The translations under genes were made by a program, and so were the position numbers. This document shows positions 9,240 through 22,320 of a stretch of 34,263 nucleotides of DNA, in pieces. The stretch covers positions 1-34,263 of IMG/VR virus record IMGVR_UViG_3300028571_000062. The stretch is one strand, 5' to 3'. The notes under the pieces are model-generated. The model saw nothing but the letters and a program-made list of their open reading frames with translations, did no database searches and had not been told where the DNA came from. Position 1 is the stretch's first letter. Every line of letters begins with the position of its first letter. The stretch is from a virus.

Positions 9240-10415
9240 TTAGTACACCATCGCGACTTTCCTGTTATGGAATGAGTATACAGCCATGCGGAAGCTGTCG
9301 CAAAAGTCGTCATTCACTTTGACCGGCTCGTCCGTTGGCTTGCCGTCTTTCTCCTTCCATGAGTACGACTTCAGCTCCTTGATTCCGTTCACTGAATCCT
9401 TCGTTATGTAAAACGGCTTGCTCTTGATTAGCTTGATGCCTGACTCTACGGAACCGGGGCCTTTCTTCGCTGGTTTGATATTGAAACCTGCCTTTCGTAT
9501 AGCCTCAATAGCTTTCGGGTCTTCATTATCCCCGTATATGTAATCGCTCTTGGTAAGCACGCCAACCTTTACCAAGTCCTCAAGCTCTGCAATAAGCATC
9601 TCGTCGTCAAGCCCGCTCTTGTATATGTGCTCCCTGACGTACACCGAGCCGTCATGGTCGCGTATCTCTGTCAGCACAGTCGGATGGTTATACCCAAAGT
9701 CCAGGCCGAATATCTTGTTTGAGTAAGTCTCTGGCAAGGCATCGCAGTATTGCCAGTGCGAGTAAATCGTAACCCCTGAAATACCACGGAGTCCAAGCCC
9801 ATAGATACGCCAATAGTTCTGGTCTGCAAGCTTGTAACGCTCGATTTCTGAAACGACCTCTGGAGGGTTAAATGGATTGTCCTTGTAGGTCGAGTGAATG
9901 ACCTCTACATCGTCACGCGTAAGGACATGATCGTATATCCAGTGAAATTGGTCGGATGGGTTGTAGTCGATATAGACATCCCCTGAAGTACGGAGCAGGA
10001 GCTGTTTCCAGTCTTCATAGTCCAGCTCGTTGGCTTCATTGATATACAGCACGGTTCGCTTTCGTCCGCGAATCTTCTTCGCATCGTCGATTGATAGGAA
10101 TTCCAGGACGGCGTGACCAACCCTGTAGGTGTGCTCGGTCTTGTTCTCGTTCTCCTGGTAGTACAGCCCGTACTCCATGAGCAGTCCCATGATGTCTTTG
10201 TATACGGTCGCCTTCAAGGCTGGCATTGTTTTACGGACGACGCAGACAATAAAGCCAGGTACATACTGGTTCTGCATCAAAAGGGTAATGACTACTTGTG
10301 CGAGCGAGTGAGTCTTCGAAGAACGCGATCCGCCCTCGTTTACCCTGATACGCTTCTTGCACTGTATGTTTCTAAAATAGACATTAGTTGCCTTCAGCTT
10401 TGCCTTGGTATTCAT
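9240..10415 (-). CDS. terL: Terminase large subunit (391 aa)
   Basis: This is the ATP-driven DNA packaging motor and nuclease. The ATPase domain has Walker A 'GGSRSSKT' at residues 28-35 and Walker B 'LYINEANE' at 123-130, with 'DYNPSDQFHWIY' after it. The RNase H-like nuclease domain begins with 'FGLDFGYNHPT' near 237, continues with 'YGDNEDPKAI' near 291 and ends with 'DSFRMAVYSF'. All three acidic positions are present. It belongs to the Terminase_3/Terminase_6-like group. The chosen ATG at 10415 overlaps the small subunit gene by 32 bp; an upstream TTG at 10430 is possible but less likely. Confidence 0.95.
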   Translation of the reverse strand: MNTKAKLKATNVYFRNIQCKKRIRVNEGGSRSSKTHSLAQVVITLLMQNQYVPGFIVCVVRKTMPALKATVYKDIMGLLMEYGLYYQENENKTEHTYRVGHAVLEFLSIDDAKKIRGRKRTVLYINEANELDYEDWKQLLLRTSGDVYIDYNPSDQFHWIYDHVLTRDDVEVIHSTYKDNPFNPPEVVSEIERYKLADQNYWRIYGLGLRGISGVTIYSHWQYCDALPETYSNKIFGLDFGYNHPTVLTEIRDHDGSVYVREHIYKSGLDDEMLIAELEDLVKVGVLTKSDYIYGDNEDPKAIEAIRKAGFNIKPAKKGPGSVESGIKLIKSKPFYITKDSVNGIKELKSYSWKEKDGKPTDEPVKVNDDFCDSFRMAVYSFHNRKVAMVY

Positions 10416-10932
10416 TGACGATTTCAACAACGAAGCCAGTGATAGGCTTGTTGTCGGTTGTTAGGTCGAGAGTGTTACCGAATTCACGCTTACGCTTGGC
10501 ACGAATGAAGCTGAAAGCGGTATCCACGGAACCAAGACCTTCGACTATAGTCTTGCGAGCTTTGAAAACAGGGGCTTCCTTGAATGAGTAAATGAATTCC
10601 TGCAGGAGCGGGTACTTCTTGTACCAGTTGTATAGGGTAGCTCTTGAAAGCTCTGCATAATGGGCGATTTCTTCGTCCGGGCATCCCATCTCTGCGGCTA
10701 TCCTCAAGTTCTCCAAGCGTTGCTTTGTAGCAGCATAGCATGTGCCACTATCGAGAATATCGTTTACTAGCTTTTCCCAGGTGTCACTGTCTAATATCAG
10801 CATTGGTTCTTCTTCTTGCCCTTTATTTTCCAACGGGGACACGATTTCAACATTAGACAAGTCGGTAACGCCCAAAGCCCCGCTATTTGGCAGGGCTTGG
10901 TCTTCATTCTGTTCGTTCTCCCGGGATGCCAT
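10384..10932 (-). CDS. terS: Terminase small subunit (182 aa)
   Basis: This is a DNA-recognition subunit for packaging. The first 45 residues are a low-complexity acidic leader. Residues about 70-105 contain a helix-turn-helix: 'RLENLRIAAEMGCPDEEIAHYAELSRATLYNWYKKYP', typical of terminase small subunits. The rest is helical with 'FIRAKRKREFGN', a motif I know from such proteins. It overlaps the next upstream gene by 29 bp and the large subunit by 32 bp, a standard TerS-TerL arrangement. Confidence 0.85.
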   Translation of the reverse strand: MASRENEQNEDQALPNSGALGVTDLSNVEIVSPLENKGQEEEPMLILDSDTWEKLVNDILDSGTCYAATKQRLENLRIAAEMGCPDEEIAHYAELSRATLYNWYKKYPLLQEFIYSFKEAPVFKARKTIVEGLGSVDTAFSFIRAKRKREFGNTLDLTTDNKPITGFVVEIVNEYQGKAEGN

Positions 10933-11269
10933 ACGTTATAGATTGTACATCGTACTTCTTGCATATAGCAAGAATCTCGTCATGAGCTTGCTTCAGGAAT
11001 TTCGCATTTCCATTGACTGTTATACTTGCCATTCTATTTGGATTGACTCCAATATTATCAATAGGAACGAACGGCTGGACTTTATCTAGTTTCCGCGAGG
11101 AAACCATCTGTAATACTTTCCCTGTCTCCTCCATGAAGTTGGAAATAAGGGAATTCAGCTTGCCTTGCTTCTTCGCGAAACTCTCGTGTGCCTTCAGGGC
11201 GACTTCAATCTTACCGAGCCGTTTTCCAATGGCGGTCAAAAGCTTCAGGTCTTCAGGCGAGAGTGCCAT
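10904..11269 (-). CDS. Hypothetical protein (121 aa), upstream of terminase
   Basis: I cannot name this protein. The first half is helical with a possible coiled coil ('LLTAIGKRLGKIEVALKAHESF'). The second half is mixed ('NRMASITVNGNAKFLKQAHDEIL'). It is translated after the TM2 gene through a TAG-CAT-ATG junction and overlaps terS by 29 bp. A DNA-binding or packaging-accessory role is possible from position only. Inside it lies one copy of the GTTTCC-N4-GGAAAC hairpin (11089-11104). Confidence 0.7.
   Translation of the reverse strand: MALSPEDLKLLTAIGKRLGKIEVALKAHESFAKKQGKLNSLISNFMEETGKVLQMVSSRKLDKVQPFVPIDNIGVNPNRMASITVNGNAKFLKQAHDEILAICKKYDVQSITYGIPGERTE
11089..11104. repeat. GTTTCC-N4-GGAAAC hairpin, copy 1
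   Basis: A 6-bp inverted repeat with a GCGA spacer (TCGC on the minus strand). The same arms recur at 14797-14812, 16422-16437 and 21200-21215. This copy is within coding sequence ('MVSSRKL'). Confidence 0.65.
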
Positions 11270-13889: not shown

Positions 13890-14054
13890 CTACATCTTGA
13901 TAAAGATTTTCATGAAGCCAAGCCATAGCCACATTGGAACGAATCGAGGCTTCGGCTTGAAAATGTCACGCATGACTTTGCTCTGTGCCATTGCGGCCCG
14001 TCGCATTTCACGCTGGTGCATTTGTCGGAGTTTCTTTGCTGATTTGTTATTCAT
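13890..14054 (-). CDS. Small basic protein with C-terminal hydrophobic segment (54 aa)
   Basis: The protein is strongly basic ('NNKSAKKLRQMHQREMRRAAM') and ends in an aromatic hydrophobic stretch ('FVPMWLWLGFMKIFI') that could insert in or lie on the membrane. I do not recognise a family. Its ATG overlaps the end of the 3D-domain gene by 8 nt, and its stop is 2 nt before the DNA methyltransferase start, so it belongs to the same unit. The upstream in-frame extension reads an alternate frame of the 3D gene and was rejected. Confidence 0.6.
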   Translation of the reverse strand: MNNKSAKKLRQMHQREMRRAAMAQSKVMRDIFKPKPRFVPMWLWLGFMKIFIKM

Positions 14055-14439
14055 AGATTGCGATCGTGATTGTTTTTCTTCCCCAGTCGAATGCCTGGGA
14101 TTTTGTCTGCAGGTGGATGTCGAAGTACTCGCCGTGGCGGTATTTTTTCGCCATCCTGTCCTCGCAAACGTACTGGGTGTCCTCCACTTGGAGAACTGTC
14201 CCAAACTTGTAATGGGCGGGACATGCGGCTGTCTGTGCCGAGATAGTCGTCCCGCTTGCTGTGATTGTCGGCGTGTCGTCCGTTTCGTCGGGGGATGCGG
14301 TGTAAGCCGTAACCTCCGCCAAAACCAGGCGTATCGGAGGCTCTGCGGCTTCCTGGGCGGCTGTTTTTGTTTGGAAAGTCAGCACTATGATTCCGAGGAT
14401 TGCCGCAACAAGGACAGCGATTCTGGTCGTCTTTTTCAT
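14047..14439 (-). CDS. Exported 3D-domain (double-psi beta-barrel) protein (130 aa)
   Basis: Residues 1-28 form a signal peptide: basic 'MKKTTR', hydrophobic 'IAVLVAAILGIIVLTF' and a likely cut near 'TAAQ'. The mature part is a 3D domain: 'VTAYTASPDETDDTP' at 43-57, 'ITASGTT', 'FGTVLQV', 'CEDRMAKKY' with Asp94, and 'GEYFDIHL' with Asp107. The family is named for three conserved aspartates and shares its barrel with MltA and Rpf-like murein enzymes. An exported cell-wall-active or wall-binding protein is likely. It stands far from the lysis genes and has its own promoter (TGGTAAAAT, 6 nt, ATG). Similar proteins are, to my knowledge, frequent in CPR bacteria. Confidence 0.82.
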   Translation of the reverse strand: MKKTTRIAVLVAAILGIIVLTFQTKTAAQEAAEPPIRLVLAEVTAYTASPDETDDTPTITASGTTISAQTAACPAHYKFGTVLQVEDTQYVCEDRMAKKYRHGEYFDIHLQTKSQAFDWGRKTITIAIYE

Positions 14440-14445
14440 ATAGAG

Positions 14446-14454
14446 ATTTTACCA
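14446..14454 (-). promoter_or_regulatory. Extended -10 promoter of the accessory cassette
   Basis: TGGTAAAAT, then CTCTAT, then ATG on the minus strand. It sits in the 21-nt gap before the 3D-domain gene and may drive that gene together with the DNA methyltransferase and glycosyltransferase. Confidence 0.6.
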
Positions 14455-14460
14455 TGAAAG

Positions 14461-14730
14461 CTAGGCTTCATGCAGGTACATTTTGACCTTTCGCATGGCA
14501 ACAAAGAATTCGTAAGGCTCGACAATGATGTCCTTTGCACGATACTGCTCCTTGATTTCGGTCGCCGTAAACGCGTCTTCCATCGTATCAGGGTGGTACT
14601 CAAAGAAAACCCAAATCTTACGCTGTCCCCTGAAGTCTTCCGGGTCTTTTTCTACATGGCTCAATTCGTAGCCTTTGCATTCAAGCACTGATGCAAGGAC
14701 AACGTCGGATGTTTTGATCGTTTCGTCCAT
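14461..14730 (-). CDS. Small phage protein, possibly DUF5659-like (89 aa)
   Basis: The start 'TIKTSDVVLASVLECKGYEL' followed by 'KIWVFFEYHPD' resembles small phage proteins of the DUF5659 type (a lysine-rich, single-domain fold with 'tsDl-lAa-L-~kG'). I am only moderately sure of that. The C-terminal helix carries 'EPYEFFVAMRKVKMYL'. It is coupled to the zinc-ribbon gene by TAA-TT-ATG and is the last gene of the small-gene run. No function is known. Confidence 0.7.
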   Translation of the reverse strand: MDETIKTSDVVLASVLECKGYELSHVEKDPEDFRGQRKIWVFFEYHPDTMEDAFTATEIKEQYRAKDIIVEPYEFFVAMRKVKMYLHEA

Positions 14731-14732
14731 AA

Positions 14733-14984
14733 TTACTTTGTTATATCGTCGACTAATTTATTAAACCCTTCTACAATCGGATGGTCTTGCGGTAGTGTTT
14801 CCTCTCGGAAACTTATTCCGTTAAACAGATTCGGATGATTTTCTAAGTCATGCAATGGCCGACAGACCTTGCATATCATTTCCTTCGAAGTCTCAAACAA
14901 TCGAGTGCCTCGGTTCTTACTGCATACGATGCACTTGTATCGGTATAAGCGAACCCAGGCTTTCTTATGCTTTTTCTTTTTCAT
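14733..14984 (-). CDS. Small zinc-ribbon protein (83 aa)
   Basis: After a basic start ('MKKKKHKKAW') come two CxxC pairs, 'CIVC' and 'CKVC', about 20 residues apart, the pattern of a zinc ribbon. The rest ('LNGIS-FREETL', 'IVEGFNKLVDDI') is unremarkable. I chose the ATG at 14984; an in-frame ATG at 15038 would add 18 residues and overlap the previous gene by 74 bp. A nucleic-acid-binding role is a reasonable guess. It contains copy 2 of the GTTTCC hairpin. Confidence 0.65.
   Translation of the reverse strand: MKKKKHKKAWVRLYRYKCIVCSKNRGTRLFETSKEMICKVCRPLHDLENHPNLFNGISFREETLPQDHPIVEGFNKLVDDITK
14797..14812. repeat. GTTTCC-N4-GGAAAC hairpin, copy 2
   Basis: On the transcribed minus strand the loop is GAGA, a GNRA tetraloop. 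It lies in coding sequence for 'SFREET'. Confidence 0.65.
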
Positions 14985-15141
14985 ATCTTTGCAGTGTTGT
15001 TTGTGAGCAAAACAATGGCTTTGCACTTTCTGGCTCATTTTCGTACCTATACCCGTACATGATTGTCCATCCGTTAGGAATTACCATTGTTATGAGTCTA
15101 CCCCCAACATTGTCCCCGACCTTATACTTTGGATTGGTCAT
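14965..15141 (-). CDS. Small hypothetical protein (58 aa)
   Basis: An ATG-to-TAA reading frame of 58 residues beginning 'MTNPKYKVGDNVGGRLI'. 'YKVGDxVGGR' is a common start for small SH3-like beta proteins. Its end overlaps the zinc-ribbon gene by 20 bp. A TATAAA box lies 8 nt before the ATG. No family is recognised. Confidence 0.55.
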   Translation of the reverse strand: MTNPKYKVGDNVGGRLITMVIPNGWTIMYGYRYENEPESAKPLFCSQTTLQRYEKEKA

Positions 15142-15214
15142 GGCTTTGCTTTATACGGGCTGATAAATCGGATAGGGCTTGGTTATAATGACCATTCGCT
15201 TTGTCTTCATACAT
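15122..15214 (-). CDS. Possible tiny protein (30 aa)
   Basis: A 30-codon frame (starts 'MYEDKANGHYNQAL', ends 'SHDQSKV') fills the gap between two accepted genes, starts 20 nt after the previous stop and overlaps the next by 20 bp. Composition is protein-like and amphipathic. Evidence is weak because of its size. Confidence 0.35.
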   Translation of the reverse strand: MYEDKANGHYNQALSDLSARIKQSHDQSKV

Positions 15215-15234
15215 TCTTTGGATCTAGGAGACTG

Positions 15235-15516
15235 TTATTTAATAATACTATTAGCTTTTTTCATTATTTCGACTCCTTCAATAACTCCTTGCATATCTCC
15301 TGGGTATATATTTCCTTGCCTTGGTGTTTGTAGGTAAAAACAATTATTCATTGAGTCGTATGTAACTCGTTGCCTATCTACTGGATATGGTACATTCTTT
15401 TTCTCAAAAACTACCTGTAACTGTGCGACTTCCCACCCTTCAGGTATCTTCATTTCTTTCAATTTTTTAATAATATCTATTTTTAGTTCACTTGATTTAG
15501 GTTTTTCTTTTTTCAT
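15235..15516 (-). CDS. Hypothetical protein (93 aa)
   Basis: A lysine-rich helical N-terminus ('ELKIDIIKKLKEMKIPEGW') leads into a mixed region ('QRVTYDSMNNCFYLQTPRQGN'). No family is recognised. It overlaps the upstream gene by 4 nt (ATGA). Its local base composition is richer in A/T than the structural genes, as is most of 15235-17170, which may mean recent acquisition. Confidence 0.65.
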   Translation of the reverse strand: MKKEKPKSSELKIDIIKKLKEMKIPEGWEVAQLQVVFEKKNVPYPVDRQRVTYDSMNNCFYLQTPRQGNIYPGDMQGVIEGVEIMKKANSIIK

Positions 15517-15743
15517 TTCAATAGTGATTTAATTGCTTGCACTCCGTCTGATAAATTATCCATCTCACTTGCTAGGTTTGCACACTCCATTACTGTCTTG
15601 TTGTGCTGTTGGGTTAGGATGGATTCAATAAAAGTCTTTAGATCAGGGATCATGTTACTATCTATTCCTCCCATAAAAGTTCCGTGGTTATCAATCCAGA
15701 TTTGAAATTGCTCTTTCCATTCTTCTAGGTGCTCTGTGTTCAT
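15513..15743 (-). CDS. Hypothetical protein (76 aa)
   Basis: A small acidic helical protein ('MNTEHLEEWKEQFQIWIDNHG') with 'MECANLASEM' near the C-terminus. A similar 'IECANLRVEA' occurs in the membrane protein at 16631-16816, so the two may share a short motif. It begins at a TAG-CTT-ATG junction and ends with an ATGA overlap. Function unknown. Confidence 0.65.
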   Translation of the reverse strand: MNTEHLEEWKEQFQIWIDNHGTFMGGIDSNMIPDLKTFIESILTQQHNKTVMECANLASEMDNLSDGVQAIKSLLK

Positions 15744-15746
15744 AAG

Positions 15747-15890
15747 CTATGACCCCCTTACTGTTACTATGACTTTGTCGACCAATACTGGCTGTAAAGC
15801 AGTTTCGCAAATTTTCGCTGCTTCTTTTTCTGCCTCAAAAATATCTTCAGCTTTGATATAAAACTCAAAGAAAACAATGTATGTATTCAT
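15747..15890 (-). CDS. Small hypothetical protein (47 aa)
   Basis: This 47-residue frame ('MNTYIVFFEFYIKAEDIFEAEKEA') fits exactly between two genes: its ATG overlaps the previous stop by 4 nt, and its TAG is followed by CTT-ATG of the next gene. The shape (beta strand, then a helix with 'EAEKEAAKICE') resembles small ferredoxin-like phage proteins. Function unknown. Confidence 0.6.
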   Translation of the reverse strand: MNTYIVFFEFYIKAEDIFEAEKEAAKICETALQPVLVDKVIVTVRGS

Positions 15891-16078
15891 GCGTAGAAAT
15901 TCTTATTTATGAATAAGCAAACCTTCTCCGGGTCTACAATGGTTCCGAGCGATTTTGACGTTGTCGTTCCATTTCCTCGCGATGTCCTGACAAGACTGCC
16001 GGTCGTCCAGTACCAATCAAAGAAGCTTCGATCGTATGGGTCTTCCTTTACTAGCCGGTATTGGTAGTACTGTGGCAT
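15887..16078 (-). CDS. Small hypothetical protein (63 aa)
   Basis: Begins 'MPQYYQYRLVKEDPYDR' and continues 'WYWTTGSLVRTSRGNG'. I chose the ATG at 16078; the frame is open to a TTG at 16153, which would add 25 residues. It overlaps the gene at 16017-16172 by 62 bp in another frame, so only one of the two may be fully used. No family is recognised. Confidence 0.5.
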   Translation of the reverse strand: MPQYYQYRLVKEDPYDRSFFDWYWTTGSLVRTSRGNGTTTSKSLGTIVDPEKVCLFINKNFYA

Positions 16079-16172
16079 CGTGAATTTGTAACCATACGCC
16101 GCGAATATCTCCAACGATATCTGCCGTATACTCACAATTAAATTCTGGGTCAATTTTGTGTTGGTTCTTCAT
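16017..16172 (-). CDS. Small hypothetical protein (51 aa)
   Basis: The ATG follows the previous stop by one base (TAA-T-ATG), the same junction as at 16629 and 16816. The sequence ('MKNQHKIDPEFNCEYTADIVGD') looks protein-like until about residue 40, where it overlaps the next gene in a different frame. Function unknown. Confidence 0.45.
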   Translation of the reverse strand: MKNQHKIDPEFNCEYTADIVGDIRGVWLQIHDATVLPIPASKGRPIRSKLL

Positions 16173-16173
16173 A

Positions 16174-16413
16174 TTACGCTTGGCAAAGTCTTACAAGTTC
16201 CCCCAGCAGACCGCCGCGAGGTATTACCTCAATCACTTCCGACTCCGGGATTACATCCCCGTCGCCTCCGTCAACGTACCGAGTCTCCAATACGATTGTT
16301 TCGCCAGTTTCAGGATGGCGATGCCACTCCTCCTTTCCCATTGGGAAGTGAGTCGTATATCCGTCGATCGCTGTCTGTGCAGATAGTCCGTTCATTTTTG
16401 ATTGGATGTTCAT
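16174..16413 (-). CDS. Hypothetical protein (79 aa)
   Basis: An acidic small protein with 'FPMGKEEWHRHPETGETI' and 'DGGDGDVIPESEVIEVIP'. I cannot assign a family. The start may be the first ATG (16413) or the seventh codon. It is preceded by a GTTTCC-N4-GGAAAC hairpin that ends 8 nt before the ATG; this is the only copy of that hairpin in a gene-free gap and could influence translation. Confidence 0.6.
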   Translation of the reverse strand: MNIQSKMNGLSAQTAIDGYTTHFPMGKEEWHRHPETGETIVLETRYVDGGDGDVIPESEVIEVIPRGGLLGELVRLCQA

Positions 16414-16421
16414 AGTTTTTT

Positions 16422-16437
16422 GTTTCCTCGCGGAAAC
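16422..16437. repeat. GTTTCC-N4-GGAAAC hairpin, copy 3 (intergenic)
   Basis: On the minus strand this reads GTTTCCGCGAGGAAAC, a 6-bp stem capped by a GNRA tetraloop. It begins directly after the TAA of the upstream gene and is followed by an A-rich stretch and the next ATG. Confidence 0.7.
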
Positions 16438-16629
16438 TTATGCGGAAATCATGGCTTCATTAGGACAGTCATTGTTTCCGCGATACTTGTTTGCTTGTTC
16501 GACAATTTCCAATGCTTCTGCAAAGTCATACTTCCCGGCTTCTAATCGAAGCTTAGTATAACCGTTTTTGCATGGTTTCCACCAAGCGTTATGCTCGATG
16601 CTCCAAATCAAATAGGTTCGTGGTTCCAT
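16438..16629 (-). CDS. Small phage protein with 'NAWWKP...GYT...AGKY' pattern (63 aa)
   Basis: The core 'WSIEHNAWWKPCKNGYT' followed by 'LEAGKYDFAEALEIVEQAN' is a pattern I know from many small phage and prophage proteins of unknown function. The ATG at 16629 was chosen because it follows the upstream TAA by one base and directly precedes the conserved core. The longer upstream frame overlaps the membrane-protein gene. Confidence 0.7.
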   Translation of the reverse strand: MEPRTYLIWSIEHNAWWKPCKNGYTKLRLEAGKYDFAEALEIVEQANKYRGNNDCPNEAMISA

Positions 16630-16630
16630 A

Positions 16631-16816
16631 TTACAATCCGCACATATCCTTTTCGGACTGCGTGAAATAAAAATCAGGGTAAGCCCACGCCTCGACGCGT
16701 AGGTTTGCACATTCGATTACTCGTTCCTTTTCGAGTGCATAGTCCATCGCAAGGTACATGAGTACCGCGAGGATTACACAAATGAAGAATCCGATAATGC
16801 GTTCGAATTTATCCAT
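16631..16816 (-). CDS. Small single-pass membrane protein (61 aa)
   Basis: Residues 7-28 ('IIGFFICVILAVLMYLAMDYAL') are one transmembrane helix. A short soluble tail follows with 'VIECANLRVEAW'. It starts at a TAA-T-ATG junction. Possible roles are membrane signalling or exclusion; nothing in the sequence decides. Confidence 0.65.
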   Translation of the reverse strand: MDKFERIIGFFICVILAVLMYLAMDYALEKERVIECANLRVEAWAYPDFYFTQSEKDMCGL

Positions 16817-16817
16817 A

Positions 16818-16955
16818 TTATTTTATAAATTCAAATGACTGCAATTCTTCTTCCAAACGCTTGATAGCTTCTTCTCCTGAAAGTCCTGTATGACGGCTTT
16901 CATTCTTGATTTTTTGAAAAAGCTTGTAAAGTTCTTCTGTGGTTAATTTTTTCAT
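16818..16955 (-). CDS. Small helical protein (45 aa)
   Basis: A 45-residue highly charged helical protein ('MKKLTTEELYKLFQKIKNES'). Its ATG overlaps the upstream stop by 4 nt and its TAA is one base before the next ATG, so it fits the run of coupled genes. Function unknown. Confidence 0.6.
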   Translation of the reverse strand: MKKLTTEELYKLFQKIKNESRHTGLSGEEAIKRLEEELQSFEFIK

Positions 16956-17170
16956 AAATGATGACCGGCTGATGCCAGCGTTAAAGTATTAAATCGAGCT
17001 AGGCTCGCAAGGAAATTATAAAGGCAAGGATTTGCCGAGGTGCGGTTTTTAGTCATAAATCTCCGCTTTTTTATTGCCGATTTGACGGCGACTTTTTTGT
17101 TACTCGTATAGTCACCCTGCATATCCTCCCTTTGATTCCTACGGAGGGTTCGCTTGGTAGCATTTTGCAT
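16952..17170 (-). CDS. Basic hypothetical protein (72 aa), uncertain
   Basis: A strongly basic protein ('TKRTLRRNQRED', 'KKVAVKSAIKKRRF') whose stop overlaps the next gene by 4 nt. It is the first gene after operator O1. The C-terminal 30 residues look less protein-like, so the true gene may be shorter or absent. A GGGAGG lies only 2 nt before an internal ATG, too close for a normal ribosome binding site. DNA or RNA binding is possible from composition alone. Confidence 0.4.
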   Translation of the reverse strand: MQNATKRTLRRNQREDMQGDYTSNKKVAVKSAIKKRRFMTKNRTSANPCLYNFLASLARFNTLTLASAGHHL

Positions 17171-17259: not shown

Positions 17260-17302
17260 CGTTTATTCAAATGCTGTTCGATTGGTAAGGTACGAATACA
17301 GT

Positions 17303-17318
17303 GTATACCATGGTATAC
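17303..17318. promoter_or_regulatory. Operator palindrome O1 (GTATACCATGGTATAC)
   Basis: A perfect 16-bp palindrome. On the minus strand it continues as ...GGTATACACT, giving a TG-N-TATACA -10-like element inside the site. It stands upstream of the small-gene run (17170 downward). The 19 bases AGTGTATACCATGGTATAC are shared with O3 and, with one change, O2. Confidence 0.75.
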
Positions 17319-17353
17319 AGTCATACAACCTGTGCATATCGTTACAACACAAA

Positions 17354-17533
17354 TTATTTCTTTTGGGAAGCAAAGCGATCCCTGCGTTTCTGCAAAAGTC
17401 TTTCGTACGCCTCCTTGTTATTGAGCTTGCGGTAGTGATACCGAACAGTATCAGGAGAGTACCCCATCTTCATGAGAGCATATTGTGTCTTTCCGTTCTT
17501 CAAATGACGGATTATCTTGTCGCTAGTTTTCAT
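17354..17533 (-). CDS. Small helix-turn-helix protein, candidate early repressor (59 aa)
   Basis: The protein is small and basic. 'NGKTQYALMKMGYSPDTVRY' (about 13-32) reads as a helix-turn-helix: helix 'TQYALMKMG', turn 'YSP', recognition helix 'DTVRYHYRKLNN'. The rest is a basic tail. I chose the ATG at 17533; an upstream in-frame start at 17569 would run through operator O2. The gene is bracketed by palindromes O1 (downstream) and O2 (over its own promoter), so I infer it is the autoregulated DNA-binding protein that recognises GTATACCATGGTATAC. An activator role or an unrelated function cannot be excluded. Confidence 0.7.
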   Translation of the reverse strand: MKTSDKIIRHLKNGKTQYALMKMGYSPDTVRYHYRKLNNKEAYERLLQKRRDRFASQKK

Positions 17534-17543
17534 AGTTGCGAGT

Positions 17544-17559
17544 GTATACCATGGTAGAC
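17544..17559. promoter_or_regulatory. Operator palindrome O2 (one mismatch)
   Basis: GTATACCATGGTAGAC differs from O1 and O3 at one base. It lies 10 nt before the ATG of the HTH gene. On the minus strand the site yields TATACACT, with TACACT 7 nt before the ATG, so the same bases serve as operator and -10 box. A weaker site on its own gene is typical of autoregulation. Confidence 0.7.
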
Positions 17560-17565
17560 GATAAG

Positions 17566-17937
17566 TCAAAGACCGATAACCTGTACGTCCTCAATGCTTT
17601 CAACAAGGAAGTATTTACCGCCAGCCGCTTCGAGGTCTTTCTGAAACTCTTTCTGACGCTCGGACTGCTTTCCTCCCTTGCGTTTCACTTCGAGGGCGTA
17701 GAGTATCCCATCCTTTACCAAAAGAATATCGGACACGCCATGCCGGGCATACTTTGGAAGCGACCGGAATGTCTCACGCTTTGCGTCGTACATCCCGACG
17801 GTGTTCTGCCGCCAGAAAAACCACTGTTTTAATTTAAGGTAATCGCAGATTGAGAGCTGTATTGCTGATTCAAGAGGACGATTGCCTTTTGTAGTCTTGG
17901 GTAACTTTGTACTAATTCCTCGTCGGAAGGTTTGCAT
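17566..17937 (-). CDS. VRR-NUC domain nuclease (123 aa)
   Basis: This is a PD-(D/E)XK-fold nuclease of the virus-type replication-repair group. 'PLESAIQLSICDYLKLKQWFFWRQNT' at 21-46 is the family start. 'ARHGVSDILLV' puts the active-site Asp at 70, 'LYALEVKRKGG' gives E83-x-K85, and 'KQSERQKEFQKDLEAAGG' closes the domain. It probably resolves branched DNA during replication or before packaging. It overlaps the HNH gene by 109 bp; no later start is possible without losing domain residues. Operator O2 lies just after its stop. Confidence 0.88.
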   Translation of the reverse strand: MQTFRRGISTKLPKTTKGNRPLESAIQLSICDYLKLKQWFFWRQNTVGMYDAKRETFRSLPKYARHGVSDILLVKDGILYALEVKRKGGKQSERQKEFQKDLEAAGGKYFLVESIEDVQVIGL

Positions 17938-18179
17938 ATGTACCCTATTCTACCAAGATTTACCAAAGTGAACATAAACAGGGAAATTTCCTCCTCCTCC
18001 GAATGGGTAACATGCTCGTGACATACCTTGCAAAGCACTGAAGCATTCAGGGGCGATGCCGATATTCGTCCAGCAATGTGGTGCAGCTCTGTGTCGTTCC
18101 GACCGCAAAAGTAGCACCTGTATCGCAAGTCATGGAACAGCCATCGTGTATCGTTTGTGAATGGGTGGGAGAGAAACAT
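17829..18179 (-). CDS. HNH-type zinc-binding endonuclease-like protein (116 aa)
   Basis: 'CYFCGRNDTELHHIAGR' (22-38) with 'NASVLCKVCHEHVTH' (45-59) gives two Cys pairs and the His-His/Asn pattern of a small HNH nuclease, as in phage recombination proteins of the NinG/HNH type. The C-terminal half is helical. The start ATG overlaps the previous stop by one base (TAATG). Together with the VRR-NUC gene it forms a DNA-processing pair. It might instead be only a zinc-binding DNA protein. Confidence 0.72.
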   Translation of the reverse strand: MFLSHPFTNDTRWLFHDLRYRCYFCGRNDTELHHIAGRISASPLNASVLCKVCHEHVTHSEEEEISLFMFTLVNLGRIGYICKPSDEELVQSYPRLQKAIVLLNQQYSSQSAITLN

Positions 18180-18358
18180 TATCGGATGTATAGCTCGACC
18201 TCTTTGACTGCATAAAATCTAGTATCTAATCCATTGTCCTTAAAGAATTGCGACACCTGCCTTCGCCCATCAAAGACCATAGGATGGAATCCATAATTGT
18301 CATTGAATTGCACAACTACACCAGTATCCCTGCGTACGATTGTGTATTTCCTAGTCAT
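18179..18358 (-). CDS. Small hypothetical protein (59 aa)
   Basis: A compact beta-rich protein ('MTRKYTIVRRDTGVVVQF'). Its ATG lies inside the last codons of the upstream gene (8-nt overlap) and its stop shares a base with the next start. The larger open frame upstream is an alternate frame of that gene and was rejected. Function unknown. Confidence 0.6.
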   Translation of the reverse strand: MTRKYTIVRRDTGVVVQFNDNYGFHPMVFDGRRQVSQFFKDNGLDTRFYAVKEVELYIR

Positions 18359-18848
18359 GCGGGTGCGTTTCGTACTTGTATCCGCAATCACGGCAGATGC
18401 AAAGCGTGTACGAGTCTTCGTGCTTGCACTTCGACATATCCTTGCCGGTCTTTTCCTCTTTGAGCGATCGGGTAAGGTCAGTGCTTGTAAGAATGGTGCT
18501 CTGCGTAAGCCAGTAGTCAGCGTCTTCTTTTGAACGAATGAGAGGGACGACCATTGCAAGCTTCGTCCATGAGCCAGCTTCGACAAGTTGCAACGGGGAA
18601 AACTGGTATTTTACGATAAACATTTTGTAGATATTTATCAGCTTCGATGCCGTACCCTTCGTCATGTGCATCTCCATCAAGAATTCGTCGAACGATTCGT
18701 ATTGCTGATCGTACAGGCGGTGCTCCTTGATGCTTGAAAGATATTCCCCGAGCAGAATAAAATTCATTTCAAGGTCTTTCTTGAGCTTCAGTGCGTCCTG
18801 GCACAAGTCGGCATTAAATAACACTGGTTTCATGGAGAGGTAATTCAT
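18351..18848 (-). CDS. DNA-binding-like protein with C-terminal zinc ribbon (165 aa)
   Basis: Residues about 25-75 ('FILLGEYLSSIKEHRLYDQQ', 'FDEFLMEMHMTKGTASKLINIY') resemble the helical N-terminal region of DUF3102/ParB-related plasmid and phage proteins. 'QLVEAGSWTKLAMVVPLIRS' continues that type. The C-terminus has 'CKHEDSYTLCICRDCGY', a likely zinc ribbon (C, C-x-C, C). An alternative ATG at 18833 would remove five residues. I infer binding to DNA. It overlaps the upstream gene by 35 bp. Confidence 0.6.
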   Translation of the reverse strand: MNYLSMKPVLFNADLCQDALKLKKDLEMNFILLGEYLSSIKEHRLYDQQYESFDEFLMEMHMTKGTASKLINIYKMFIVKYQFSPLQLVEAGSWTKLAMVVPLIRSKEDADYWLTQSTILTSTDLTRSLKEEKTGKDMSKCKHEDSYTLCICRDCGYKYETHPHD

Positions 18849-19224
18849 TTAGGCTTGCAAGTTTCTTTTCGAGCATAGCTTCCTCGACCATTCGACTGCA
18901 CGCAGCCTCAAGGTTCGAAAAGAAGTTATAGGGGAATTCCCAAAGGTCGGTATCGCCGTTTCCGTAGAGATAGGGCGTATCCTTCAAAACATGCTGAAGG
19001 TACAGCTTGCGGGTTTCTGCCGTTGCATTGTGGCAGATGGCACGCTCTCCGTTCGGCATGATCTTGATAGCCTTCATGCGAATCAAAAACTTTTCAAGAT
19101 TCCCATCGAGGATAATCTTCTTCATAGCTTCACGCATTTCCTGCGTGAAATGGTGTGAGTTTCCGACAAGGTCGTCGAATTCGCTCATGTCGTCATTCTT
19201 TTTTCTCCTAGTGATTTTTGCCAT
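18814..19224 (-). CDS. Hypothetical protein downstream of replication initiator (136 aa)
   Basis: A basic start ('MAKITRRKKNDD') leads into helical segments ('FTQEMREAMKKIILDGNLEKFLIRMK') with 'CHNATAETRKLYLQHVLK' in the middle. I do not recognise it. It follows the replication gene with a TAA-ATCT-ATG junction, and TAAAAT stands 6 nt before the ATG, so it may also have its own promoter. In phages this slot often holds a helicase loader or DnaC-like partner, but no ATP-binding motif is seen. Confidence 0.65.
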   Translation of the reverse strand: MAKITRRKKNDDMSEFDDLVGNSHHFTQEMREAMKKIILDGNLEKFLIRMKAIKIMPNGERAICHNATAETRKLYLQHVLKDTPYLYGNGDTDLWEFPYNFFSNLEAACSRMVEEAMLEKKLASLNELPLHETSVI

Positions 19225-19228
19225 AGAT

Positions 19229-19993
19229 TTATTTTACTAGCTCTGTTAAAACAGTATGCAGATTCCAGTCGATAGTAGGATATTTTTTGGAAACAGCTTC
19301 GATTGCTTCAAGAAGCTGATCATCCTCATAAACTTTTAATTGCGATGCCCACTTGAGATGCTGGGAAAGAAATACTTTGTATTGTTCATTATTGAGAATC
19401 TTCGGCTTCAGCTTTGCAAAGCGTTTTTCCAAAAACATTGCGATTATATTCAAGTGACGCTGTGGGGAGTCTTCAAGCTTCCTTAGCTCATCCTTCAAAA
19501 AGAAAGTCTTTGGATTTACTGGTTCAAAACCTGGCTTTCGCGGCTCTGCCGCAATATCTTGGTTTCCTTGGTTTCCTTGGTTTTGTATGTTTCCTTTCGC
19601 TACCACTTTTGGTTTCCTTTCGCTACCACTTTTGGTTTCCTTATGAAACTGGTTTCTTTTCGCTACCACTTCCAAAACGGATGCCTCAAGATTCAATTCG
19701 TAGAAGTTGCCCCTAGAATCGTCCGTTTTTAGGACTACTCCGCAAGCTACGAGGCTCTCTAAGGCCTGTGATATGTATTTTCGAGTAATGCCACATCCTT
19801 TGTCTAAAACTTCGCCTGTGGGGCGTGTGATGCCTTTCTCGAACTGTGAGAAGCTGATTCGGTCGACATGCTTCTGAAAGCCGTAGGTTCGACGCATGAT
19901 GTACAGGAGCACTCGAAGCTCTGCATCTGAAAGCTCTGACAAGAGGCTGTCAAATAGAACATTGGGTACTTGTGTTGTGTTGGGTATTAGCAT
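19229..19993 (-). CDS. Replication initiation protein, phage O-like (254 aa)
   Basis: Residues 1-100 form a winged-helix domain of the phage replication-protein O/replisome organiser type: 'TTQVPNVLFDSLLSELSDAELRVLLYIMRRTYGF', 'ISFSQFE', 'GCGITRKYISQALESLVACGVVL'. Residues about 105-150 are a low-complexity linker coded by the iterons (see 19559-19672). The C-terminal 90 residues ('QHLKWASQLKVYEDDQLLEAIE') probably bind a host replication partner. As in lambda O, the origin would lie inside the gene. No phage helicase or polymerase gene was found, so the protein must recruit host factors. Confidence 0.85.
   Translation of the reverse strand: MLIPNTTQVPNVLFDSLLSELSDAELRVLLYIMRRTYGFQKHVDRISFSQFEKGITRPTGEVLDKGCGITRKYISQALESLVACGVVLKTDDSRGNFYELNLEASVLEVVAKRNQFHKETKSGSERKPKVVAKGNIQNQGNQGNQDIAAEPRKPGFEPVNPKTFFLKDELRKLEDSPQRHLNIIAMFLEKRFAKLKPKILNNEQYKVFLSQHLKWASQLKVYEDDQLLEAIEAVSKKYPTIDWNLHTVLTELVK
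19231..19236 (-). promoter_or_regulatory. -10-like box before the 136-aa gene
   Basis: TAAAAT, AAATCT, ATG on the minus strand, overlapping the stop of the replication gene. The extension is TA rather than TG, so it is weaker than the others. Confidence 0.4.
19559..19672. repeat. Iterons within the replication gene, candidate origin
   Basis: Two exact 22-bp copies of a unit with core TTTCGCTACCACTTTT lie at 19589-19610 and 19612-19633 (period 23). A third, slightly changed copy is at 19652-19671. TTGGTTTCCTT also occurs at 19559-19569, 19568-19578, 19609-19619 and 19632-19642. A 23-bp period is not a multiple of three, so the copies are read in different frames (VVAK versus SGSER). The repeat is therefore kept at DNA level, as expected of initiator-binding iterons. 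Confidence 0.8.
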
Positions 19994-20058
19994 GTGGGGA
20001 TGTAAGGAACTTATCTAGTAACCAGGATAGTATCGCTCCCGGTCGGCGAGGATGCAAA

Positions 20059-20325
20059 TTATTGCACTTCCTTCAGCAATGACTTTGAAACAATGACAAG
20101 AGTGTTGGTCTGCATTCGCTTTACTGCTCGGTGTTTTTTTGCAAAATTCAGTGCTTCCTCGCAGTCCAGTGTGTAGTCAATGCCCTCGACGTTTACGATA
20201 ATCGTTTCTTCTCCTCGGAAATGTGAAAGCTCGATGCCGACACCTTTCCAGTCGTAGCCAGCTTCAAAATTGTAGTCACGGCCAGCCATTCTGTACCAGC
20301 CTTTCTCTATAGTAATTTTCTTCAT
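20059..20325 (-). CDS. Hypothetical protein (88 aa) behind a structured leader
   Basis: A small beta-rich protein: 'ITIEKGWYRMAGRDYNFEAG', 'GVGIELSHFRGEETIIVNVEG', then a helix 'CEEALNFAKKHRAV'. No family is recognised. It lies between the SSB and the replication initiator, so a replication-related role is likely. Its leader holds two overlapping hairpins (20347-20404) that could control its expression. It contains a degenerate form of the GTTTCC hairpin near 20204-20222. Confidence 0.65.
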   Translation of the reverse strand: MKKITIEKGWYRMAGRDYNFEAGYDWKGVGIELSHFRGEETIIVNVEGIDYTLDCEEALNFAKKHRAVKRMQTNTLVIVSKSLLKEVQ

Positions 20326-20346
20326 AATTTCTTCATGTTTTCTTCA

Positions 20347-20404
20347 GGCTCCCATCCCGCAACGCACCTTGCATGTGTTGGGGGACGGAAGCCCGAAAGC
20401 TTCC
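20347..20404 (-). promoter_or_regulatory. Leader with two mutually exclusive hairpins
   Basis: On the minus strand GGAAGC (20404-20399) can pair with GCTTCC (20392-20387). The same bases, as GGCTTCC, can instead pair with GGGAGCC (20353-20347), continuing through GTCCC/GGGAT and CAAC/GTTG into a long stem broken by one C-C mismatch. The two forms cannot coexist. No T tract follows, so translation control or RNA processing is likelier than termination. Confidence 0.55.
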
Positions 20405-20410
20405 TAGCTG

Positions 20411-21115
20411 TTAAAAGGGGATGTCTTCAGGGTTCAGATCGTCCTCTGGGTAGACTACTCCTGGAATTGCTGACGCTGGCTGTGTTGCCACGGGTCTAGG
20501 TTTATCTTCTCCTTGAGCATCAAGATGTACGACCGGAAGCGGTGCAATGCCTCGCTTCTCTCGTTCGATTGCAATCTTGGACTGGACTTCTTCGTAGTAC
20601 GCTGGGTCGTCCTGCATCTTCTTGCGTTGTGATGCCTTCATGCGTTCGATGATCGCGTCTGTGGTATCAAGTGCCGCAAGTGTTTCGAGGTCTTCTGGTG
20701 TGAGTACCTCGTCGTTGTCCGCAATGATGTTGTTCGACACATTCGTCTTCCCTGCATTCTTCGTTTCAATGTTCACGACGTACGGCATAGGGAAGCCCAT
20801 AAACTTCGTCCGTGCACCTTTTGCGAGGTCAAGGATTTGCTGCGTAATCCTGTAGCTGAATTTCGCTAGCTTGATTTTTTGATCGGTCATGTCCTTCACA
20901 TAGCACATGAAGCGGACGGATGCGATGTCGCCATATCCGCATTGGTCGTATGCGATTCCTACACCAAAGAGTTCGGAAAAAATCTTTGGCATTGAAACGA
21001 TAAGGACGCGGTTCGAGCCTTCCTTCAGTTTGTAGTAATCGGCTCGGTTGGATCCGCCGTAAGCGGGGGCTGCTGCCATTTCAGCCTCAAGGTCTTCGAT
21101 TGATTGTGTTTGCAT
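20411..21115 (-). CDS. ssb: Single-stranded DNA-binding protein, gp32-like (234 aa)
   Basis: The N-terminal region 'RADYYKLKEGSNRVLIVSMP' resembles the start of T4 gp32-type OB folds. The middle holds 'FMCYVKDMTDQKIKLAKFSYRITQQILDLAKG'. The C-terminus is acidic and ends 'DDLNPEDIPF', the tail that SSBs use to bind partner proteins. It should coat single strands during replication and recombination and act with the upstream exonuclease. The gene starts 65 nt after the exonuclease stop, behind a hairpin. Confidence 0.85.
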   Translation of the reverse strand: MQTQSIEDLEAEMAAAPAYGGSNRADYYKLKEGSNRVLIVSMPKIFSELFGVGIAYDQCGYGDIASVRFMCYVKDMTDQKIKLAKFSYRITQQILDLAKGARTKFMGFPMPYVVNIETKNAGKTNVSNNIIADNDEVLTPEDLETLAALDTTDAIIERMKASQRKKMQDDPAYYEEVQSKIAIEREKRGIAPLPVVHLDAQGEDKPRPVATQPASAIPGVVYPEDDLNPEDIPF

Positions 21116-21145
21116 AACGCTGTTCTTTTGACTGCCCTTTATCTT

Positions 21146-21174
21146 ACGGCATGAGTCGGGCTATCCCATGCCGT
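21146..21174. other. Intergenic hairpin ACGGCATG/CATGCCGT
   Basis: A perfect 8-bp stem with a 13-nt loop between the exonuclease and SSB genes. No T tract follows on either strand. It probably protects or separates the two messages. Confidence 0.5.
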
Positions 21175-21180
21175 TATGGG

Positions 21181-22212
21181 TTATTCCCCTTCATCCGTTG
21201 TTTCCTCCTGGAAACTATCGACAATCTTGTCAGCATCGAATCCGGTATCCCGAATTTCCTGCAATGCTACAAGGTTGTCCTTTGTCATGTCCTGCTTTTT
21301 CTTTACTCGACCAAGGACGCGGTTCCATCGACCTGCCACTTTCTTGACGTATTCCGCATATTCCTCTGGGTGTCCGAAAGGTTCTTTCGTGATTGGGTTG
21401 CTGTAAAGCATCGTCAGGTAATTGGAATATCGGACATTGAAGTTGAAAGTAAATTTGCCCTCTAGCTCGTTGAAGATAATCAATGGCTCGATTGCTGGCT
21501 GTTCGTCCTTCGCGAGCATATCCATGAAGAATTTGATACGGGTGTGCAATGCTTCCTCGACATGGTGTGCGTAGACATTGAAGCTCATGATTCGCATGTC
21601 GTCACGGCAGATGTAGCAAAGCATTCCTGGAATCTCTTTCTTCAGGATGTAAGGTGCAAGTTGCAATACATGGCTTTCAATAGGCTTCTGGTCGCGTAAC
21701 ACTTTCTCGAAAGAGATTAGGGCGAGCGACTTCACTTCGACGACCTTGCTTGCGAGTCCTTCCGGGTACTTCTCCAAAAGGTAGGTAACAACGGCATGGG
21801 TAGAGTTTCGCATCGACTCTGGCATTGATTCCTCGGCAAGCATCTTTTCTGCTTCCTCAAGGTTCGGCATACCTCCTCCGATAAAGTCCAAGCGACCTGT
21901 GACCTTCATAAGTCCTGGGGCTTGATATTCGATTCGTTCCTGGCTCTCTTGTAGGATTCCTGCTCGCATCATGACGAGCTTGATAAGATATTCAAAATAG
22001 TTTCCAGCTTCCATCTTTCGCAATGCACGCTCGTCTGGCTTGTTGCTTGGCTCTGTGCCTTTCAGATTCAGGAAGATGTCAACAAGTGACTTTCCAAGCT
22101 CTGAAGCCCATAGGTAGTCGCGTGGAGTGCGTGGGCGTTCCCTTCGTAAAATAAGACCTGGATTCCACACTTCGTCGATTGTCCAGTCGTCTGGTAATTG
22201 ATTTTTTTGCAT
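21181..22212 (-). CDS. PD-(D/E)XK exonuclease, RecB/Cas4-like (343 aa)
   Basis: The motifs of a phage exonuclease are present: 'MEAGNYFEYLIKLVM' (67-81), 'MKVTGRLDFIGGG' with Asp109 (102-114), and 'SKVVEVKSLAL' giving E159-x-K161. A helical middle and a charged C-terminal tail follow. Such enzymes resect DNA ends for single-strand annealing and work with an SSB, which is the next gene. The ATG at 22212 was chosen because the domain starts soon after it. The frame stays open upstream through operator O3, including a GTG, but that stretch looks non-coding. Confidence 0.85.
   Translation of the reverse strand: MQKNQLPDDWTIDEVWNPGLILRRERPRTPRDYLWASELGKSLVDIFLNLKGTEPSNKPDERALRKMEAGNYFEYLIKLVMMRAGILQESQERIEYQAPGLMKVTGRLDFIGGGMPNLEEAEKMLAEESMPESMRNSTHAVVTYLLEKYPEGLASKVVEVKSLALISFEKVLRDQKPIESHVLQLAPYILKKEIPGMLCYICRDDMRIMSFNVYAHHVEEALHTRIKFFMDMLAKDEQPAIEPLIIFNELEGKFTFNFNVRYSNYLTMLYSNPITKEPFGHPEEYAEYVKKVAGRWNRVLGRVKKKQDMTKDNLVALQEIRDTGFDADKIVDSFQEETTDEGE
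21200..21215. repeat. GTTTCC-N4-GGAAAC hairpin, copy 4
   Basis: Loop AGGA on the minus strand. It lies in the last codons of the exonuclease gene, coding 'SFQEET'. Confidence 0.65.
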
Positions 22213-22259
22213 AGTGAATTGTTGCTTAATTGCTAGGGTTTCGATACCCCGCACATAGT

Positions 22260-22275
22260 GTATACCATGGTATAC
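22260..22275. promoter_or_regulatory. Operator palindrome O3 and early promoter
   Basis: A perfect GTATACCATGGTATAC identical to O1. On the minus strand it is followed by ACT, giving TGG-TATACA and TACACT as -10 elements directed at the exonuclease gene, whose ATG is 47 nt downstream. Binding here should block RNA polymerase at the first early gene. Confidence 0.75.
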
Positions 22276-22320
22276 AAAAATGGTAGCCTTATGACACCGA
22301 TTTACTGTGTAATAACATAC

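Follow-up and report, generated by a model that had tools for sequence, protein, structure and literature searches.

The virus record analysed here (34,263 bases, with a 127-bp direct repeat at both ends, and referred to as a whole as the window) carries three palindromic sites that are very probably operators of some regulator; that these operators overlap minus-strand promoters is well supported by the sequence. We lean towards reading them as the operators of one phage regulon, in which a 59-aa predicted helix-turn-helix (HTH) protein would damp early transcription in the manner of Cro. The operator reading, which stands as it was originally proposed, draws on the symmetry of the sites, their exact recurrence, their non-coding position and their promoter geometry. 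If the regulon exists, its repressor and operator would form a compact pair (59 aa, 18 bp) that is easy to test, and it would show how regulation is organised in a siphovirus lineage that has no characterised member among the records searched.

Palindromic sites and the candidate promoters they overlap

The 16-mer GTATACCATGGTATAC is exact at positions 17303-17318 and 22260-22275, and GTATACCATGGTAGAC at 17544-17559 is a copy of it with one mismatch. As stated in the original prediction, there are two exact copies and one with a single mismatch, each preceded by AGT on the plus strand (three of three); beyond that prediction, the exact copies extend to the perfect 18-bp palindrome TGTATACCATGGTATACA. 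Site 1 (17302-17319) separates the HTH gene from a run of small early-type ORFs (14051-17170, minus strand), which lies downstream of the site. Site 2 (17544-17559) lies upstream of the HTH gene in a gap of 32 bp, within the promoter spacer of that gene. Site 3 (22259-22276) is 46 bp ahead of the gene that opens the early/replication block and encodes a Cas4-like exonuclease (21181-22212, minus strand). The predicted placement of the sites ahead of the small-gene run, the HTH gene and the exonuclease gene is therefore confirmed by their positions. The HTH gene is flanked by sites on both sides, and the imperfect copy is the one at its own promoter.

No further copies of GTATACCATGGTATAC with up to three mismatches were found in the window. 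Three matches at this threshold compare with a mean of 0.09 in shuffled sequences, none of 100 shuffles reaching three, which bears out the earlier claim that the recurrence is not due to chance. Sites 1 and 3 are the only perfect palindromes longer than 14 bp in the window, and only five perfect palindromes of at least 16 bp were detected in 728 kb of terminase-bearing relatives. All three sites fall within the roughly 6% of the window (about 5.7%) that is left non-coding by a hand-curated gene list; the naive chance of such a placement is about 2e-4, a figure that is indicative only because the ORF list was chosen by hand.

On the minus strand, all three copies end in GGTATACACT. The trailing CT lies outside the symmetry and is conserved on the minus-strand side only, which points to a promoter and an operator that are superposed, as expected for an operator placed over a -10 box. 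The -10-like boxes that had been predicted on the minus strand at each site are located where described. The promoter of the HTH gene (TTGACT-N17-TACACT, 17541-17569, minus strand) ranks 9th of the 68,454 positions scored with a generic sigma-70 matrix with hand-supplied frequencies. The site 2 palindrome occupies the 17-nt spacer of this promoter, and 7 nt separate the end of the -10 box from the HTH gene ATG at 17533. Site 1 overlaps a minus-strand TTGTAT-N17-TACACT (-35 at 17323-17328, -10 at 17300-17305; rank 252), and site 3 overlaps a minus-strand TACACT (22257-22262) with a weak -35 (rank 802). Promoter-like matches in the region as a whole are not above those in shuffles, so the promoter claim depends on the coincidence of these matches with the palindromes and not on the scan alone.

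The sites could also be mainly promoters and not operators, with their symmetry reflecting paired -10-like boxes for divergent transcription. Each arm does provide TATAC on either strand, and the TGG ahead of TATACA resembles an extended -10 element, but all recognised genes lie on the minus strand, promoters scored low on the plus strand at the -10 boxes, and the identity covers the whole 18 bp and takes in a centre, CCATGG, for which a -10 box has no use. We regard this reading as very improbable and retain that of operators superposed on minus-strand promoters.

The HTH gene has no Shine-Dalgarno sequence ahead of it. Together with the distance of 7 nt between -10 box and ATG, this makes a leaderless HTH message likely, and the layout of the promoter suggests that the mRNA would be both leaderless and self-repressed. 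The missing Shine-Dalgarno sequence is itself weak evidence, since most genes of this phage are without one: a Shine-Dalgarno-like motif precedes only about 10 of the 51 listed genes. Many genes start 3-4 nt past the upstream stop codon, often as TAG-CCT-ATG, which suggests that translation is coupled and that the host relies little on Shine-Dalgarno sequences.

Gene layout and relatives of the phage

The window encodes a siphovirus-type gene set, including terminase, portal, protease, capsid, tape measure and tail proteins, and every recognised gene is carried by the minus strand. The early block starts with the Cas4-like exonuclease (start at 22212; phrog_1990, E 1.5e-6; phrog_1706, E 6e-9), which is followed by an O-like replication gene, a VRR-NUC-type nuclease, the 59-aa HTH gene and small ORFs. 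In agreement with the original prediction of a phage without a visible integrase, no Pfam or PHROG match to an integrase was found among the approximately 30 ORFs scanned, which covered part of the small ORFs; likewise, no cI-like repressor or other lysogeny gene was found among the ORFs scanned. No Rfam families or tRNA genes were detected in the window.

Relatives of the large terminase were identified at 63 loci (37-52% identity), and those that were compared have only structural genes in common with this phage. None of the 17 terminase-relative records searched contains the palindrome within three mismatches. For the early genes, the O-like replication gene has distant relatives only, and searches with the exonuclease and with the ORFs at 20411-21115 and 18351-18848 returned no relatives; no related phage that keeps the early region was found. 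One distant relative, recognised by its O-like gene, carries one perfect 18-bp palindrome, TGGTTCACGCGTGAACCA (L094:609-626).

Other repeats are present in the window. A second dyad, GTTTCC-N4-GGAAAC, is perfect at 11089-11104, 14797-14812, 16422-16437 and 21200-21215, with 7 copies within two mismatches as opposed to 1.6 expected. As gene-strand RNA it would form a 6-bp hairpin, with the loop GAGA at 14797 and GCGA at 16422, and the copy at 16422 holds GAGG ahead of an ATG at 16413; the dyad is possibly an RNA-level control site. The O-like replication gene contains three 23-nt repeats at 19589-19674 (GTTTCCTTTCGCTACCACTTTTG; two exact and one at 83%), which are reminiscent of the iterons of lambda-type origins.

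The 59-aa predicted HTH protein and the proposed circuit

The ORF at 17354-17533 (minus strand), which had been described as an HTH gene encoded between two of the sites, is a real coding gene. Its own frame scores 0.145 bits per codon, versus -0.22 to -0.86 for the other five frames, and this value falls within 0.088-0.567, which is the 5-95% range found for true in-frame windows. AlphaFold, run on the single sequence, gives an all-helical three-helix HTH model (predicted helices 3-12, 17-23 and 27-57; mean pLDDT 84.5, pTM 0.54) that has no separate dimerisation domain, no strand and no wing. In family searches the protein matches only HTH_28 (PF13518), at 14.4 bits and thus under the gathering cut-off of 25, and matches none of the Cro/Xre (HTH_3), GntR, FCD and TerS families. 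A sequence search of PDB returned nothing credible, and a fold search with the model returned only non-significant matches, the best of which (VIA Z 5.5, to LuxR/NarL-type domains) is within noise; the absence of a fold match is no evidence for a new fold. No relatives of the protein were found in tblastn-confirmed scans of viral and genome contigs or by tblastn of phage records and plasmids. Cro-type phage repressors have about 60-70 aa and P22 Arc has 53 aa, and against these sizes the description of the candidate repressor as 'unusually small' in the original prediction was overstated.

That the 59-aa protein binds the palindromes and regulates its own gene is the most economical reading and a plausible one, which we hold with moderate confidence; it is based on three points, namely the position of the gene, the HTH fold predicted for its product, and the fact that the operator at the gene's own promoter is the weaker one. 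In the proposed mechanism, an HTH dimer would bind one palindrome, contacting each half-site (TGTATACC/GGTATACA) through a single recognition helix, and because each copy ends in GGTATACACT, the bound dimer would cover the -10 box and block RNA polymerase. The protein would be made from its own strong promoter, probably from a leaderless mRNA that starts at or near the ATG. As it accumulates, it would first shut the early promoters at site 3 (exonuclease/replication block) and site 1 (small-gene run), and would shut its own promoter last, the imperfect operator at site 2 being expected to be the weakest. Early transcription would thereby be under negative feedback of a Cro-like kind, in a phage that has so far yielded no lysogeny gene. 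Points against this model are that no relative of the protein was found, that its family matches fall under the cut-off and its fold matches are non-significant, that its predicted fold has no separate dimerisation domain, that the promoter matches at sites 1 and 3 are weaker (ranks 252 and 802), and that the palindrome is also used in unrelated bacteria. It is possible, although doubtful, that the arrangement holds in its strictest form, in which an orphan 59-aa HTH protein, without relatives or a separate dimerisation or sensor domain and made from a leaderless mRNA, would be the sole regulator of early transcription through three near-identical 18-bp operators in a phage that has no lysogeny module.

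Several early ORFs have no assignable function, and the binder might be one of their products, which would repress or activate; candidates are the 165-aa early protein encoded at 18351-18848, in which an HTH-like stretch is visible, and the product of another small early ORF. We consider this unlikely, as no regulator domain scored above the cut-off in the early ORFs scanned, the AlphaFold model of the 165-aa protein is poor (pLDDT 48), and position favours the 59-aa gene. It appears quite improbable that the 59-aa protein binds the sites as an activator, or as a DNA-binding factor of packaging or replication, and not as a repressor. Its HTH motif, GYSPDTVR, presumably resembles that of small terminase subunits, and in another virus arrays of the same palindrome are found just upstream of terminase genes (see below). 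Nevertheless, this phage encodes a separate small terminase subunit (10384-10932; phrog_309, E 1.6e-5) and has no sites near its terminase genes, and a palindrome over the spacer and -10 box is in the place of a repressor.

The palindrome in other genomes and known regulators

The exact 16-mer occurs in 8 viral contigs, which is about chance level by our estimate, and no relative of the 59-aa protein was found in these contigs. Two viral contigs, L001 and L002, which are 97.6% identical over 4.2 kb, carry GTATACCAYGGTATAC in arrays immediately upstream of terminase genes (L001:173-928, L002:134-1079); the context is unrelated, and nearly the same palindrome is put to a different use. The exact 18-mer TGTATACCATGGTATACA was detected in six prokaryote genomes, with about 4 occurrences expected by chance in 257 Gb (our estimate). 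In four Rhodobacterales (L086, L087, L088 and L089) it is found at one shared locus, the flanks of which have diverged, together with genes for a PrpF-type protein, a 2-hydroxyacid dehydrogenase and a tripartite tricarboxylate-type transporter. L087 encodes a GntR/FCD regulator in the same cluster, approximately 3 kb from the palindrome. The same location in four Rhodobacterales with unrelated flanks indicates that the palindrome is probably an operator there too, and its probable reader is the nearby GntR/FCD regulator. A literature search for the palindrome found nothing relevant.

These occurrences bear on a further alternative, in which the phage sites would be operators for a host regulator, for example a GntR/FCD protein, and would let the phage sense the state of its host, the 59-aa protein being otherwise employed. 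In addition to the shared Rhodobacterales locus and the regulator gene in L087, it is favoured by the GntR/FCD protein Atu1419, which binds the GTATAC-cored palindromes ATGTATACAT at -10 boxes (PMC7797058), and by the two GTATAC cores that are 10 bp apart in each phage site. However, genome matches beyond the Rhodobacterales locus are at about chance level, and none of the phage genes was recognised as encoding a GntR protein. We rate this alternative lower, as rather unlikely, because few genomes of the one family sampled contain the 18-mer (3 of 198, one mismatch allowed) and because an HTH gene of the phage lies between the sites. The palindrome without the HTH gene, but in unrelated genomes, is a warning and no refutation of the 59-aa protein as the binder. 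The same 18-bp operator sequence is apparently used by unrelated regulators, which calls for caution in naming regulators from operator sequence alone.

The Arc and Mnt proteins of P22 are repressors of early phage promoters with 50-80 aa. The 59-aa protein is similar to them in its small size and in its candidate control of early promoters, but Arc and Mnt are ribbon-helix-helix proteins, whereas the predicted model of the 59-aa protein is all-helical. The GTATAC operator core at the -10 box is shared by the phage sites and the VanR-type GntR/FCD protein Atu1419 (PMC7797058); in contrast to the GntR/FCD proteins, the phage protein has only 59 aa and is predicted to lack both a wing and an FCD domain, and the likeness of the operators is probably convergent.

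Like the Cro-type repressors (lambda Cro; PY54 Cro, PMC4488713), the 59-aa protein is a small phage protein with an HTH fold, in this case predicted, and the palindromic operators, which are 17-18 bp long in those systems, overlap its own and early promoters, as far as sequence anatomy goes. Unlike them, it has no Cro/Xre sequence match; no cI partner and no divergent arrangement were seen, the recognised genes being all on the minus strand; and near-identical operators, one per promoter, are dispersed over 5 kb in place of a graded triplet. The 59-aa protein would work like Cro but is not assignable to the Cro family, because its sequence does not match that family and no cI partner turned up among the ORFs scanned. 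The repressor-operator arrangement itself is a familiar one. In PY54, Cro binds a palindromic operator of 18 bp, and both the cI and the cro mRNA are leaderless (PMC4488713), as is inferred here for the HTH mRNA; with an 18-bp palindrome and leaderless mRNAs together in PY54, the proposed model has a precedent.
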